The notes under the pieces: generated by a model
What the model was told of the DNA's origin: nothing
Database searches by the model: none
What the model saw: the letters and a program-made list of their open reading frames with translations, nothing else
In this document: in pieces, positions 18,475 to 24,361 of the stretch
Layout of the letters: the number at the start of each line of letters is the position of its first letter
How positions within the stretch are numbered: the first letter of the stretch is position 1
Program-made: the position numbers and the translations under genes
Source of the DNA: Thermoleophilia bacterium
Lineage (GTDB): Bacteria; Actinomycetota; Thermoleophilia; Gaiellales; Gaiellaceae
NCBI GenBank assembly: GCA_009694305.1
Contig: SHVL01000018.1
Coordinates: forward strand, 1-46,376
DNA length: 46,376 nucleotides
Direction: 5' to 3'

Positions 18475-18658
18475 CGGCACTCGCGCGGGCCCTCTGCACC
18501 TCTGCCTCGATCTGCTTCGCGAGTTCCGCGATCTCGGCGAGATCGTCCACGGCCGCGTCAACGTCTCCTGCCTCGGCCAGGCGCTCGAGGTTCTCGAGCC
18601 TCGCGCGGAGCCGTTCGGCGAGCTCCTGTGCGCGCCCGAGGCTCTCGTTCGCGCTCAT
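18461..18658 (-). CDS. 65-residue helical protein in the xseB position
   Basis: Short gene of 65 codons. The ATG at 18658 overlaps the nusB stop (ATGA), and the 3' end overlaps the prenyl transferase start. The product is one or two amphipathic helices rich in Glu, Ala, Arg and Leu (ESLGRAQELAERLRARLENL...LAKQIEAEVQRARA). Its length and location between nusB and ispA match exodeoxyribonuclease VII small subunit XseB, and the pattern is loosely similar. The typical XseB core (LExGxLxLEEAL) is not clearly present, and no xseA is nearby. The coding call is solid from the coupling; the XseB identity is tentative. Confidence 0.65.
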   Translation of the reverse strand: MSANESLGRAQELAERLRARLENLERLAEAGDVDAAVDDLAEIAELAKQIEAEVQRARASADAGA

Positions 18659-19044
18659 GACGCCCCCTCGCGCTGAATCCGGCCGAGGATCCCGTTCACG
18701 AGCCGCGCCGCCTCCTCCGTTGCGTATCGCTTCGCAAGCACGACAGCTTCGTTGATCGCCACTTCGGCAGGCACCGTCCCCTCCTCCAACTCGTAGACCC
18801 CGATCCGCAAGACGTTGCGCTCGAGCGTACCGAGCCGGTCGGCCGCCCACGCGTCTGACGCCGCCGTGATGCGCTCGTCGAGCACGGTCGCCCGTTCGGC
18901 GACGGCCTCGGCAAGGCCGAGCGCGAAGTCGTCGGGTGTGCCGTCGTAGAGCGAAGCAAGCGGCTGGCCGGTGAGGTCCCACTGGTAGAGAAGAAAGAGA
19001 GCGGTGCGACGCGACTGGCGCCTGCCGACCCTGACGACGGTCAT
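18655..19044 (-). CDS. nusB: Transcription antitermination factor NusB
   Basis: All-helical RNA-binding protein that joins NusE/S10 on boxA RNA in rRNA antitermination. The 129-residue length is normal. Family features are the Arg-rich start GRRQSRRTALFLLYQWD, the Leu-rich central helices, ERNVLRIGVYEL and the C-terminal VAINEAVVLAKRYATEEAARLVNGILGRI pattern (about 93-123). The ATG at 19044 overlaps the accC stop (ATGA). Its placement between accC and the short helical gene is common in Gram-positive chromosomes. Confidence 0.95.
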   Translation of the reverse strand: MTVVRVGRRQSRRTALFLLYQWDLTGQPLASLYDGTPDDFALGLAEAVAERATVLDERITAASDAWAADRLGTLERNVLRIGVYELEEGTVPAEVAINEAVVLAKRYATEEAARLVNGILGRIQREGAS

Positions 19045-20405
19045 CGGGGCCCGGCAGACAGGGCGGGTAGGCGACCTTCCATCTCGGCAAGGTAGCTGGT
19101 CGAGTAGTCGCCTCCACGAAACTCACGCGAGCGCAGGATGTCGAGTGCCAGCTCACGGGTGGTCGGGATCCCCTCGATCTCGAGCTCCTCGAGCGCCCTC
19201 ACCGCGCGGGCGATGGCTGCGTCACGGTCGGCGTCATGCACGATCACCTTCCCGATCATCGAGTCGTAGAACGGAGGGATCACAGCCCCCTCGATCAGGG
19301 CGGTGTCCATTCGCACTCCCGGGCCGAGTGGCGGCCGGAACCGCGTGATCGTCCCTGCGGCGGGTGCGAAGTCGCGCCGCGGATCCTCGGCGTTGATCCT
19401 GATCTCGATCGCGTGGCCCGAACGCGGTGCCCGCCCGGTGATCGAGAGTCTCTCTCCCGCGGCGATCCGGAGTTGCTCGCGCACGATGTCGATTCCCGTC
19501 GTCATCTCGGTGACGGGATGCTCGACCTGAAGGCGGCAGTTCACCTCGATGAACGAAGGTGAGCCATCCGGTCCGAGGAGAAACTCGAACGTGCCGGCGT
19601 TGACGTAGTCGAGCTGGCGGCAGGCCCGCTCCACGGACGCCTCCATCTCCTCGAGGGTCTCCGGCGTGAGCGCCTGCGAGGGCGACTCCTCGATCAGCTT
19701 CTGGTGGCGGCGCTGGATCGAGCACTCTCGCTCGCCCAGCGTGAGCACGCCCCCGAAACCGTCGCAGAGCACCTGGATCTCGACATGTCGGGCGGGCACG
19801 ATCGCCCGCTCGAGGTAGAGCGAGCCGTCGCCGAACGCCGCCTCCGCTTCGGCACACGCGGCCCGGTAGGCGGCCTCGAGCCCGTCGGGGCCCGCAACAG
19901 TCCGCATCCCCTTTCCTCCACCGCCGGCGGTTGCCTTGAGCAGGACGGGAAAACCAACCTCTGCCGCGACGGCGTGCATCCCCGCAAGCGTTGCAACTCC
20001 GTCGCTTCCGGGGACGAGTGGCATTCCGGCAGTACGCATCTCGACCTTCGCACGCGCCTTGTCACCGGTCTTCTCCATCACCTCCGCCGACGGCCCCACA
20101 AAGACGAGGTCGTTCTCGATACAGGCACGAACGAAATCCGGGTTTTCCGAGAGGAACCCGAAGCCCGGATGAACGGCCTCGCACCCGGTTGTATCCGCAG
20201 CGGCGATCACGTTCGGGATGCGAAGGTAGCTGTCGGTTGCCGACGGAGGGCCGATGCACACGGCTCTGTCGGCCATCCGCACGTGCAGCGCCTCGCGGTC
20301 GGCAGTCGAGTACACGGCGACCGCTTCGACTCCGAGCTCGTGGAGAGTCCGGATGATGCGCACCGCTATCTCACCCCGGTTCGCGACGAGCACGCGGGAG
20401 AACAT
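19041..20405 (-). CDS. accC: Biotin carboxylase (acetyl-CoA carboxylase subunit)
   Basis: ATP-dependent carboxylation of the biotin on its carrier protein. 454 residues, the standard length. ATP-grasp motifs are intact: the glycine loop TAGGGGKGMR, HVEIQVLCDG, RECSIQRRHQKLIEE with its catalytic Lys, and the active-site segment SFIEVNCRLQVEHPVTEM carrying the Glu, Asn, Arg, Gln and Glu needed for metal, bicarbonate and biotin. This subunit should be fully active. The ATG start at 20405 is 16 bp downstream of the CT-AccB fusion gene, so the two are probably co-expressed and the fusion's biotin domain is the likely partner. Confidence 0.96.
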   Translation of the reverse strand: MFSRVLVANRGEIAVRIIRTLHELGVEAVAVYSTADREALHVRMADRAVCIGPPSATDSYLRIPNVIAAADTTGCEAVHPGFGFLSENPDFVRACIENDLVFVGPSAEVMEKTGDKARAKVEMRTAGMPLVPGSDGVATLAGMHAVAAEVGFPVLLKATAGGGGKGMRTVAGPDGLEAAYRAACAEAEAAFGDGSLYLERAIVPARHVEIQVLCDGFGGVLTLGERECSIQRRHQKLIEESPSQALTPETLEEMEASVERACRQLDYVNAGTFEFLLGPDGSPSFIEVNCRLQVEHPVTEMTTGIDIVREQLRIAAGERLSITGRAPRSGHAIEIRINAEDPRRDFAPAAGTITRFRPPLGPGVRMDTALIEGAVIPPFYDSMIGKVIVHDADRDAAIARAVRALEELEIEGIPTTRELALDILRSREFRGGDYSTSYLAEMEGRLPALSAGPR

Positions 20406-20421: not shown

Positions 20422-22224
20422 CTAGACGATCGGCTGAACGTCGACCGGATCGAGCTCGAAGAGGATCTGTCCGAACTCGACGGGCTGCCCGCTCTCGACG
20501 TGAATCGCCTTCACCCGGCCCTCGTGCTCGGCCTTGAGCTCGTTGAACAGCTTCATTGCCTCGAGCAGGCACAGCGTCTGCCCGACGGCGATCACGTCTC
20601 CCACCTCGACGAACGCGGGTGTCCCGGGCGACGAGGAGCGGTAGAAGATGCCGACCATCGGTGACTCGACGCGGACGCCGTCCCGCAGGGGTGTCCGCGG
20701 CACCTCTCCGTCCGGGGCCTCGGCCGGCGCTGCGAGGGACGCGACCGCGACACCCGTCTCATCTGCCCTGCGAACCGACACCCGCATCCCGTTGTCCTCG
20801 ATCTCGATCTCGCCGACCCCGGACTCCTGCACGATCTTCACGAGCTCTCGGATCCGTTCCGCGCGGCCTGCGTCCACGTTGCCGAGCAGCAACGACGACT
20901 CCCGCGAGTGCCGCTGCCGGATCGACTGCAGCAGAGCCTCGACCTCCTCGCCGAACATTGCGAGGAGCACGAGATCCTCCTCGCTCGCCGCGAGGCCTTC
21001 GGCGGCGACGCGGACGTCTTCGGCGCTCGGCGGATCCTCGAGAAGGGCGGTAGCGGGGCCCTTCACGAGCCCGACGGCACGGGACACGGACTCCTCGATC
21101 GGCACGGGCGTGGTGCCGTAGTGTCCCTCGACGAGCATCCTGAACTCGTCGAGCACCGTTCCGTAGCGGCGAGCCGAGAGGATATTGAGCAGAGCCTGAG
21201 AGGCAAGGATCTGGCCGATCGGCGAGGCGAGCGGCGGCCACCCGGACTCTGCCCGGATACGGGATACCTCGGCCAGCGTGTCGAGCAGCCTGTCACCTGC
21301 AGCGTTCGCGCGAAGGTGGAGGTCGAGCGCGGCGACGAGCCCCGCCGGCAGGTCGTATTCCGCTGCCCGCACGGAGATTCTCGGTGCCATCGGCGCCACG
21401 GGCTCGTCACCGATGTGCTCGTCGATCAGGTCGGCAGCCTCCCACAATAGCCCCGGGTCAACGCCGGTCTCGCGGCCAAGCCCGTGCAGCGCGTTCACCA
21501 GGGACTCGCCCGAGATCCGGTGTAGCGTCAGAGCCAGTGGATAGACGGCGGTGGCGATGAGGTCGGCCCCGACCCGGGTGGCGACGACCGCGTTCAGAAG
21601 CCCCGTGCCCGCTGCCCCCTGCACGAAGAGCCCGACCGGAAGCCCCGTGGCCTCACGGATGCGCTCGACGAGCTCCTCCGTGAGGTGCGGGAGCAGGGCA
21701 TCGGTCGGGTCGTTGATGATCACCCGCGTTGCGCCGAGAGCGGGAATCTGCCGGGAGCGCTCGACGAGAGCGTCGATCTCACCGACCCGACCGGCGCTGT
21801 AGACGAGCCCAACGTGGAACTCCTTGCCCGCATCGACGATCGCCTCACCCGCCCCCTTCAGGTTCGAGACGTCGTTCAGCGGGTCGTGGAGCCTGAAGAC
21901 GTCGATGCCGTTGTCCGACGCGCAGGAGATGAAGCGCCGCACGATATCCCCGGAGACCGGCTTCGAGCCGACGAGGAAACGGCCGCGCAGGGCGAGCCCC
22001 AGGGGCGTCGTCGTTCGTGCGTCGATGGCGCGGATGCGCTCCCACGGGCTCTCCACGGCACGGCGTACGGCCGAGTCGAAGACGCCGCCGCCCGAGATCT
22101 CCAGGTAGGCGAATCCTGCGCGGTCGAGAATCTCCGCGATCCGCAGCACTTCGCCCGTCGGGAGCTTGCCGGCGAGCGGGTCCTGCGAGAGCAGGCGAAT
22201 GGTGGTGTCAACGATCTGTGGCAT
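20422..22224 (-). CDS. Degenerate carboxyltransferase domain fused to a biotin carboxyl carrier (AccB) domain
   Basis: 600 residues. Residues 1-390 follow the OadA/PycB/5S carboxyltransferase fold closely (DTTIR start, LEISGGGVFDSA, SPWERIRAI, IDVFRLHDPLND, SPIGQILASQALLNIL). All four metal ligands are changed: Asp to Leu11, the carbamylated Lys to Asn171, and the two His to Phe200 and Gln202. The catalytic Thr is Ala298. Residues 455-487 look like an AccB N-terminus (IRELVKIVQESGVGEIEIEDNG). Residues 515-593 are a biotinyl domain with intact EAMK (Lys558). The position efp-this-accC-nusB is that of accB. It probably acts as the carrier subunit with a non-catalytic barrel. An automatic label such as pyruvate carboxylase subunit B would mislead. 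Confidence 0.85.
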   Translation of the reverse strand: MPQIVDTTIRLLSQDPLAGKLPTGEVLRIAEILDRAGFAYLEISGGGVFDSAVRRAVESPWERIRAIDARTTTPLGLALRGRFLVGSKPVSGDIVRRFISCASDNGIDVFRLHDPLNDVSNLKGAGEAIVDAGKEFHVGLVYSAGRVGEIDALVERSRQIPALGATRVIINDPTDALLPHLTEELVERIREATGLPVGLFVQGAAGTGLLNAVVATRVGADLIATAVYPLALTLHRISGESLVNALHGLGRETGVDPGLLWEAADLIDEHIGDEPVAPMAPRISVRAAEYDLPAGLVAALDLHLRANAAGDRLLDTLAEVSRIRAESGWPPLASPIGQILASQALLNILSARRYGTVLDEFRMLVEGHYGTTPVPIEESVSRAVGLVKGPATALLEDPPSAEDVRVAAEGLAASEEDLVLLAMFGEEVEALLQSIRQRHSRESSLLLGNVDAGRAERIRELVKIVQESGVGEIEIEDNGMRVSVRRADETGVAVASLAAPAEAPDGEVPRTPLRDGVRVESPMVGIFYRSSSPGTPAFVEVGDVIAVGQTLCLLEAMKLFNELKAEHEGRVKAIHVESGQPVEFGQILFELDPVDVQPIV

Positions 22225-22274: not shown

Positions 22275-22841
22275 CTAGGCGCGCGAGATGTAGCGCGCCT
22301 CGCTCGGATCGACCTTGATCCGGTCGCCCACGTTGACAAAGAGCGGCACCTGGACGACGGCGCCCGTCTCGAGGGTCGCGGCCTTCGTCACGTTCGAGAC
22401 CGTGTCACCCTTGACGCCCGGCTCGGTCTCCGAGACGGCCAACTCCACGGACGAGGGAAGCTGGATGGCGGTTGGCTTGCCGTTGACGGCGAGGATCTGC
22501 ACGATCGACGAGGGCAGGATGTAGGTGAGCTCCTCCTCGACTTCCGACCGTGGCAGGGCGAACTGCTCGTAGGTCTGCTCGTCCATGAAATGTGCGTCCG
22601 TGCCGTCGTCGTAGAGAAACTGAACGTTCTTCGTCTCCGTGTGCACCCTCGCGAACTTCTCGCCTGCGCGGAACGTCTCGTCGATCACGGCGCCCGTCTC
22701 GAGGTTCTTCAGCTTCGTCCGCACGAACGCGCCGCCCTTGCCCGGCTTCACGTGCTGGAAGTCCACGATGCGCCACATCCCACCGCGATGCTCGATGTGC
22801 ATACCCGTCTTGAACTGATTGGTGCTGATGATGTCGGCCAT
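22275..22841 (-). CDS. efp: Elongation factor P
   Basis: Rescues ribosomes stalled at polyproline stretches. 188 residues with the three beta-barrel domains of EF-P. The tip of domain I is VKPGKGGAF, giving Lys35 at the position of the modified residue (Lys34 in E. coli), so this is the lysine-type rather than arginine-type factor. No epmA, epmB or other modification gene is visible in the window. I chose ATG 22841 (MADIISTNQFKTG), the family start, over the ATG four codons earlier. It lies between the M24 peptidase and the CT-AccB gene, matching the common pepP-efp-accB-accC order. Confidence 0.96.
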   Translation of the reverse strand: MADIISTNQFKTGMHIEHRGGMWRIVDFQHVKPGKGGAFVRTKLKNLETGAVIDETFRAGEKFARVHTETKNVQFLYDDGTDAHFMDEQTYEQFALPRSEVEEELTYILPSSIVQILAVNGKPTAIQLPSSVELAVSETEPGVKGDTVSNVTKAATLETGAVVQVPLFVNVGDRIKVDPSEARYISRA

Positions 22842-22892
22842 CCGGCGGTGCACGATACCTGTCGCCGGCGCGAACGACGCGCGCTGCGGTGC

Positions 22893-23933
22893 CTACGCGA
22901 GGGTCAGCATTTCCTTCGTGAACGACGTGAGGATCTCGCAGCCTGCCTCGGTGACGACGACCAGGTCCTCGATCCGGCAGCCCCCGACGCCCGGCAAGTA
23001 GAGACCGGGCTCGACCGTGACGACGTTCCGGGCAGCGAGGACATCGGTGGATTCGGGCCGCAGCACCGGTGCTTCGTGCACCTCGAGTCCGAGCCCGTGA
23101 CCGAGTCCGTGACCGTAGTGCTCCGCCATCTGCGCCTCCGTGATGGCCGTCCGCGACGCCGCGTCCACGTCGTACCCGGTCGCGCCTGCGCGCACGGCGG
23201 CGAGTCCGTCGAGTTGCGCCCGCGCGACCAGGTCGTAGACCTCGGCGAGCTCCGCGGAGATCTCACCGACGGCAAAGGTGCGCGTGCAGTCGGAGCAGTA
23301 GCCGCCAACGACGCATCCCGCATCGACCGTCAGGAGAACGCCCTCTGCGATCACGTTATCGCCCGGATGTGCGTGCGGTGAGGCCCCGTTCAGACCGGCC
23401 GCGACGATGGAGTCGAAGGCGAGCCCGTCGGCACCGAGCTCACGGAATGTCCGTTCGACCCACCAGGCGAGCTCCTTCTCCGACCGTCCGACGACGCGTT
23501 CGTTCGAGAGCGCCTCATAGAGGTCGTCGGAGATGGCCGCGGCGCTACGGATCGCGTCGAGCTCGACCTCGTCCTTGACGATGCGGAGCGATTCGACGAC
23601 TCCCCGGGTCGCCACGAGATCGGCTCCGCCCGCCGCAATCGTCTCCCACTGTGCGTACGAGATGCGCGACGCCTCGAACCCGACCCGCCGGCCTGCGAGC
23701 AGGTCGGCGAGCGCACCCGCTACGTCACGGCGTGTCTGGACGAGCTCGACCCCTTCGACGGCGCGGGCCGCCTCGAGGTAGCGAAAATCGGTGAAGAGGG
23801 TTACCGCGGCGTCCGGTTCGACGAGCAGAGCGCAGTTCGAGCTCTGGAACCCCGAGAGGTAGCGGACGTTGACCTCGTCGGTCACGAGCAGGGGGTCTGT
23901 GAGACCGGCTGCAAGTAGATCGAGGCGACTCAC
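22893..23933 (-). CDS. M24 family Xaa-Pro aminopeptidase
   Basis: Metallopeptidase that removes N-terminal residues before proline, 346 residues. The N-terminal creatinase-like domain (about 1-115) is followed by the pita-bread catalytic domain. All five metal ligands are present: Asp in LTVDAGC and Asp in YCSDCTRTF, His in GHGLGHGLGLEVHEAP, Glu in VTVEPGLY and Glu in RIEDLVVV. Start is GTG 23933, overlapping the aroQ TGA (GTGA); the frame further upstream is Arg/Gly-rich and unlikely. PepQ-type dipeptidase specificity cannot be excluded, so no symbol is given. Confidence 0.92.
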   Translation of the reverse strand: MSRLDLLAAGLTDPLLVTDEVNVRYLSGFQSSNCALLVEPDAAVTLFTDFRYLEAARAVEGVELVQTRRDVAGALADLLAGRRVGFEASRISYAQWETIAAGGADLVATRGVVESLRIVKDEVELDAIRSAAAISDDLYEALSNERVVGRSEKELAWWVERTFRELGADGLAFDSIVAAGLNGASPHAHPGDNVIAEGVLLTVDAGCVVGGYCSDCTRTFAVGEISAELAEVYDLVARAQLDGLAAVRAGATGYDVDAASRTAITEAQMAEHYGHGLGHGLGLEVHEAPVLRPESTDVLAARNVVTVEPGLYLPGVGGCRIEDLVVVTEAGCEILTSFTKEMLTLA

Positions 23934-24361
23934 GTCCGTCGCTCTGCGAGAAGGCCGAGCGCCTCGCGGTAGCCCTCGAATCCCTTGCCGACGACCCGCA
24001 TCCCCCCGAGGCCGGTCAGCACCGAATGCCGACGCCATTCCTCTCGCTCATCGACGTTGGAGAGATGCACCTCGACGAACGGTGCCGTGAAGGGCTCGAG
24101 CGCATCGCGGATCGCCCAGGAATAGTGCGTCCACGCGCCGGGGTTGACGATGAGCGCGTCGGCCGTCCCGAGTGCCTGGTGCAGGAACCCGACGTACTCG
24201 CCCTCGTGGTTTGTCTGCCGACAGCGCACCTGCAGGTCGAGCTCGCGCGCCCAGGCGTACACCTGGGTCTCGAGGTCATGGATCGACTGGGCACCGTAGA
24301 CCGACTGGTCTCGCCGCCCGAGGAGATTGAGGTTGACACCGTTGAGGACATCGATCCGCAC
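23930..24361 (-). CDS. aroQ: Type II 3-dehydroquinate dehydratase
   Basis: Third step of the shikimate pathway (3-dehydroquinate to 3-dehydroshikimate); dodecameric flavodoxin-like fold. 143 residues. Motifs are LNGVNLNLLGRRDQSVYG with the active-site Arg and Tyr, RQTNHEGEYVGFLHQA, ALIVNPGAWTHYSWAIRDAL and FVEVHLSNVDERE. In the loop the usual REP is RRD, which is tolerated in some homologues. GTG start at 24361, nine bases after the aroKB stop. It overlaps the M24 peptidase gene by four bases. Confidence 0.95.
   Translation of the reverse strand: MRIDVLNGVNLNLLGRRDQSVYGAQSIHDLETQVYAWARELDLQVRCRQTNHEGEYVGFLHQALGTADALIVNPGAWTHYSWAIRDALEPFTAPFVEVHLSNVDEREEWRRHSVLTGLGGMRVVGKGFEGYREALGLLAERRT

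Follow-up and report, generated by a model that had tools for sequence, protein, structure and literature searches.

The closest described systems are the PycB, OadA, transcarboxylase 5S, and AccB proteins of biotin-dependent enzymes. PycB (5ks8, Methylobacillus flagellatus; PMC5059739) carries a carboxyltransferase (CT) barrel, a PYC_OADA domain, and a C-terminal biotinyl domain in one chain, and its biotin carboxylase (BC) is a separate subunit. The CT dimer is one of the main architectural units of this two-subunit pyruvate carboxylase, and a C-terminal helix is the mark that separates its BC, PycA, from the BC of acetyl-CoA carboxylase (ACC) (PMC5059739). Non-catalytic assembly subunits are known in acyl-CoA carboxylases, such as AccE in actinobacteria and BADC in plants (PMC7835884). 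In addition, a survey found none of its sampled Actinobacteria to have an ACC-type BC domain (PMC3199775).

We analyzed a 46,376-nucleotide stretch of DNA (the window; contig SHVL01000018.1) from a Thermoleophilia bacterium of the Gaiellaceae, in which a CT barrel is fused to an AccB-type carrier. The fusion resembles PycB in the one-chain arrangement of CT barrel, PYC_OADA domain, and biotinyl domain beside a separate BC, but it lacks the metal ligands and the catalytic Thr, and an AccB N-terminal region takes the place of the BT-like domain with its HGE motif. Compared with two-subunit pyruvate carboxylase, its BC partner is without the PycA C-terminal helix. The CT fold is shared with OadA (2nx9) and 5S (1rqb), from which the fusion differs by its dead active site, its adjacent BC subunit, and its AccB-type tail. 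Like bacterial AccB (TIGR00531; 4hr7, 1bdo), it has an N-terminal region and a biotinyl domain that score over the family cut-off, and it lies beside accC; unlike bacterial AccB, it has a 440-residue pseudo-CT domain in front. AccE and BADC offer a precedent for non-catalytic parts that aid holoenzyme assembly, but they are not dead CT barrels. Intact CT-AccB fusions from other Thermoleophilia and Actinomycetota families (for example, at loci L061, L191, and L223) have the orthologous architecture, and the same gene order where efp is in the flank, but they keep the Asp, Lys, His, and His metal ligands and the catalytic Ser (D/K/H/H/S). The fold and the parts of the fusion are already known. 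In our literature search, which covered few subscription papers, we found no description of a CT-AccB fusion or of a dead CT within one; the repeated conversion of the fused CT to a retained pseudoenzyme is a second point for which no description was found there.

Architecture and family assignment of the fusion

The features of the locus are collected in Table 1, in which residue positions were read from an alignment with the solved PycB (5ks8) and OadA (2nx9). A complete accC begins 16 nt downstream of the fusion gene. The CT barrel and the PYC_OADA fold are present according to Pfam, the predicted structure, and the match to PDB entries, with an HMGL-like match of 32 bits at residues 2-267. 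The similarity to PycB has an E-value of 1e-69 and the open frame is kept in ~80 other Gaiellales records, and therefore chance similarity and an assembly or frameshift artefact were both ruled out.

Table 1. Features of the fusion gene and its neighbors, with positions in the window
Feature	Position	Strand	Basis
Fusion gene, pseudo-carboxyltransferase + AccB, 600 aa from ATG	20422..22224	-	ORF, Pfam + NCBIfam
CT TIM barrel, residues 1-275, catalytic residues lost	21400..22224	-	Pfam HMGL-like 2-267; AlphaFold2 pLDDT mostly >90
PYC_OADA helical domain, residues 276-440	20905..21399	-	Pfam PYC_OADA 289-438
AccB N-terminal region, residues 454-490, helix and two strands, replacing the BT-like domain of PycB	20755..20865	-	TIGR00531 457-591; without HGE motif
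Biotinyl domain, residues 516-594	20443..20679	-	Pfam Biotin_lipoyl 519-591
Biotinyl Lys558 in EAMK	20551..20553	-	Alignment
Leu11 where metal ligand Asp is expected	22192..22194	-	Alignment
Asn171 where metal ligand Lys is expected	21712..21714	-	Alignment
Phe200 (Tyr in most Gaiellales) where metal ligand His is expected	21625..21627	-	Alignment
Gln202 where metal ligand His is expected	21619..21621	-	Alignment
Ala298 where catalytic Thr/Ser is expected	21331..21333	-	Alignment
accC, biotin carboxylase, 454 aa, ACC type	19041..20405	-	Pfam + NCBIfam; PycA C-terminal helix absent
nusB, 4-nt overlap with the accC end	18655..19044	-	ORF + synteny; name from the earlier note and sequence reading
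efp, elongation factor P	22275..22853	-	Pfam + synteny
Xaa-Pro peptidase-like gene, member of the conserved gene order	22893..24038	-	Synteny; name from sequence reading only

An earlier note on this DNA gave exact coordinates for the gene, though no strand, and named Leu11, Asn171, Phe200, Gln202, and Ala298 as standing in for the four metal ligands and the catalytic Thr. The comparison with 5ks8 and 2nx9 bears this out, as it does the intact biotinyl Lys558; the neighboring AccC is complete, as the note had said. Its statement that the N-terminal part follows OadA/PycB closely was too strong, the identity to PycB/OadA being ~28-32%. The NCBIfam equivalog model of AccB, TIGR00531, gives the Gaiellales fusion 126.6 bits against a cut-off of 115.2, and its match, at residues 457-591, takes in the AccB N-terminal region as well, again as claimed. 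The PycB model, PRK09282, gives 367.5, under its cut-off of 402. By contrast, intact relatives reach 825 bits against the same cut-off, and the three intact fusions that we scored all exceed the PycB cut-off as well as that of AccB. The note's expectation that such proteins are usually mis-annotated as PycB thus stands for the intact relatives but not for the Gaiellales, whose fusion is under the PycB cut-off and over that of AccB.

Loss of the active site across the Gaiellales

The Gaiellales are soil bacteria, and we scored the active-site columns in 81 of their fusion sequences. The D/K/H/H metal set is absent from all 81: position 202 is Gln in every copy, position 200 is Tyr in 71, position 11 is Leu or Val throughout, and position 171 is His, Asn, Asp, or Leu instead of Lys. 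The catalytic position 298 is Ala in 70 of the 81. The biotinyl region is included in 74 copies, and every one of these has the biotinyl Lys. For the dead CT, dN/dS ranges from 0.04-0.20 across ten pairs of closely related Gaiellales, close to that of accC (0.05-0.16 where measurable) and usually lower than that of the AccB part. The full-length CT domain occurs in ~80 diverse Gaiellales records, down to ~45% identity, and we saw no fusion-free AccB at this locus in the Gaiellales. With the D/K/H/H set gone and the dN/dS low, the barrel is, on all sequence criteria, a dead CT that has nevertheless been kept: the loss of residues is fixed across the clade, and the predicted fold is under purifying selection. 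The Gaiellales fusion is, by sequence criteria, a real, clade-wide pseudoenzyme, in agreement with the earlier note, and scoring its five sites across homologues showed the loss of the metal set to be universal in the order. Homologues that keep D/K/H/H, which the note had named as a possible refutation, do exist at the class and phylum level, with none among the 81 Gaiellales, and they leave the pseudoenzyme unrefuted.

Hereafter, f1-f75 are family codes, L-numbers loci, and G-numbers genomes. One dead fusion, L040:2425-4191 (G021, family f3), has an in-frame stop or stops in its assembly. Two records titled Acidobacteriota and Burkholderiales (L136 and L159) carry Gaiellales-type fusions and are probably mislabeled metagenome bins.

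Presumed partners and other biotin enzymes of the source genome

Only two biotinyl domains are encoded in the source genome, in the fusion and in a BC-BCCP chain on contig 84. A second AccB was ruled out, as direct reading assigns the other five Biotin_lipoyl matches to lipoyl domains. Contig 37 encodes AccD and AccA, and contig 80 encodes a beta chain of the propionyl-CoA carboxylase type. The adjacent AccC has no Ala-rich helix of the PycA kind at its C-terminus, and the HGE motif of the BT-like domain of PycB was not found in the fusion. In L221, a probable two-subunit pair within the phylum, the BC C-terminus is longer and Ala-rich, which suggests that the PycA-helix test discriminates. 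Because the fusion is the only AccB, AccA and AccD are present, AccC is of the ACC type, and the HGE motif is missing, the fusion is best read as the AccB of an AccABCD-type ACC, the enzyme of the first step in fatty-acid synthesis. The proposal that the gene serves as accB is thereby upheld at the level of sequence, and since accA and accD lie on another contig, the pairing with their products is a presumed one. The lineages with the fusion hold an ACC form that the survey of Actinobacteria (PMC3199775) missed.

Intact and dead orthologues

The gene order aroBK-aroQ-pepP-efp-fusion-accC-nusB occurs in most fusion-bearing loci of the class Thermoleophilia; in family f6, only the adjacent accC is missing from it. 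Within the class, fusions beside efp with an intact D/K/H/H/S set and an AccB-type tail are found in f6, f9, and most f7 genomes having the fusion, and intact fusions with the AccB tail also occur in many further Actinomycetota families. Besides the Gaiellales, four dead groups keep the fusion. The f5 fusion has lost Lys and both His residues and retains Asp11; in two f7 genera (L073 and L074), Asp is replaced by Ser and both His residues by Asp; in f16 (L207-L214), both His residues are lost, with Lys kept and Asp mostly kept; and in f34 (L217-L218, genomes of 1.0-1.4 Mb), Lys is replaced by Met and both His residues remain.

A tree of neighbor genes requires at least three changes between the active and dead states, with the dead L073 and L074 nested in intact f7, the Gaiellales and f5 in one group, and f16 and f34 in another. 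The CT tree has two changes, with the dead rows of the class clustering on long branches, so the exact count of losses is uncertain. A single loss of activity was rejected, as the neighbor-gene tree needs three changes and the two in the CT tree may reflect long-branch attraction. Because the sets of lost residues differ (f5 keeps Asp11 and f34 both His residues), separate inactivations may exceed three. Together with the intact orthologues at the class and phylum level, the neighbor-gene trees suggest that the active form came first and that at least three independent inactivations followed in some lineages.

In six intact f9 genomes (G105, G115, G120, G140, G160, and G178), the fusion is the one AccB over the cut-off, and no CoA-type carboxyltransferase other than AccA/AccD was found. 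Neither a full-length PEPC nor a single-chain pyruvate carboxylase was found in any f6 or f9 genome. The simplest reading of f9 is that one AccC-AccB pair would supply two sites of carboxyl transfer, with pyruvate as the substrate of its own barrel and acetyl-CoA as that of AccA/AccD. Since the fusion is there the sole AccB and the sole CT besides AccA/AccD, the ancestor probably served both substrates in the same way, with one AccC and one CT-AccB; the CT chemistry would later have been lost in several lineages and the domain retained. A CT-AccB fusion, common in several Actinomycetota families, would let one BC/BCCP pair serve the carboxylation of both pyruvate and acetyl-CoA. Single-chain pyruvate carboxylase is present in seven f5 genomes, and PEPC matches, some of them fragments, in 13 f1 genomes. 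A clean match between CT loss and the gain of either enzyme was rejected, the match being only partial, with many Gaiellales having neither.

In the single-contig genome G106 (f5), the fusion is split by a frame change that cuts the biotinyl domain off from the AccB N-terminal region (L092:4778-6513); G199, from the same genus, has an uninterrupted frame, and the split is either an error or a true fission. In G004, G008, and G016 (f4, in the same order as the source genome) and in f8, f10, f11, and f12, CT-AccB matches are none or weak, and the best AccC-like matches in these five families lie mostly in frames of ~600 aa, probably BC-BCCP chains. Three f26 loci (L215, L219, and L220) encode intact CT chains, of an architecture unlike the main fusion, in which the linker before the biotinyl domain does not look AccB-like, as seen for L220.

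Predicted structure and role of the dead barrel

The AlphaFold2 model of the fusion, built from 46 Gaiellales sequences, has a mean pLDDT of 84.8, with the barrel mostly above 90; confidence is low in the linkers, at the C-terminal tip, and in parts of the AccB N-terminal region. The structure prediction proposed in the earlier note thus finds the fold kept, with a Z-score of 44.3 and an rmsd of 2.6 over 428 residues against OadA (2nx9) and a Z-score of 43 against transcarboxylase 5S (1rqb). Dead and intact forms have many conserved columns in common, a good share of them Gly, Pro, and other likely structural residues. A scaffold role fits, because such structural-type columns are shared by both forms and the CT dimer is architectural in two-subunit pyruvate carboxylase.

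Our main reading, with a probability of about 0.6, is that the fusion is the AccB of a four-subunit ACC and that its dead N-terminal CT barrel of 440 residues, derived from pyruvate carboxylase or oxaloacetate decarboxylase, is kept as a platform. AccC would carboxylate the biotin on the C-terminal domain of the fusion, and the biotinyl domain would hand the carboxyl group to AccD/AccA, whose genes lie elsewhere. The barrel, presumably dimeric like its relatives, would hold the carrier and AccC together, and by analogy with these relatives it may dimerize or make contact with AccC, AccA, or AccD. The best explanation of its altered residues is that it would no longer be able to bind the catalytic metal or transfer a carboxyl group.

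A scaffold is the first reading of the dead barrel and a ligand sensor the second, in which the former active site would bind a small carboxylate or some other metabolite and so tune ACC; we consider the sensor possible, though on balance unlikely. Arg80 and Gln14, which we take to be the positions of the Arg that binds pyruvate and of the active-site Gln in the numbering of R. etli pyruvate carboxylase, are each kept in 81 of the 81 Gaiellales copies, and other pocket positions are fixed anew without drift (D11L, Q82R, F113H, and H202Q, with His200 replaced by Tyr in most). The mean entropy of the Gaiellales pocket columns is 0.55, compared with 1.22 for the domain, a difference that is suggestive only because the columns were hand-picked, some after their conservation was seen. 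Conservation of the pocket beyond that of the remaining domain counts against a pure scaffold, which would not need it. However, the dead f5 lineage has lost both Gln14 and Arg80 and shows no clear pocket conservation (p 0.055); sensing is therefore not general. The conserved polar residues of the Gaiellales pocket (Arg10, Gln14, Arg80, Asp114, Asn117, Asp172, Arg236, and Glu240) could also point to a different catalysis, independent of both the metal site and the Thr. Such a gain appears improbable: the residues lost differ among the dead lineages, which counts against one new reaction, and no HMGL-like/DRE-TIM enzyme is known to us to act once its metal site is gone. Very improbable is a useless passenger whose deletion is still to come, as might be suggested by the apparent absence of the locus from f4 and other families of the class; the low dN/dS in Gaiellales pairs, the full-length domain across diverse records, and the lack of any fusion-free AccB seen at the Gaiellales locus all argue against it. 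Finally, a fusion still active as a subunit of pyruvate carboxylase or oxaloacetate decarboxylase is hardly credible despite its overall likeness to PycB/OadA, with the four metal-site residues and the catalytic Thr gone, an AccC partner of the ACC type, and a score under the PycB cut-off.

In a wider and rather doubtful scenario, an ancestral Actinomycetota BC and CT-AccB were of dual use, the CT was switched off on at least three independent occasions with the dependence of ACC keeping the barrel in place, and the Gaiellales pocket was rebuilt to regulate fatty-acid synthesis. With both intact and dead orthologues available, the role of a dead catalytic domain in ACC becomes directly testable. 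Some Gaiellaceae-type genomes also have a second locus (L051:729-2512, L052:6418-8108, and L053:69-1482), in which a separate AccB-like carrier lies beside a 5S-type CT with an intact D/K/H/H set.
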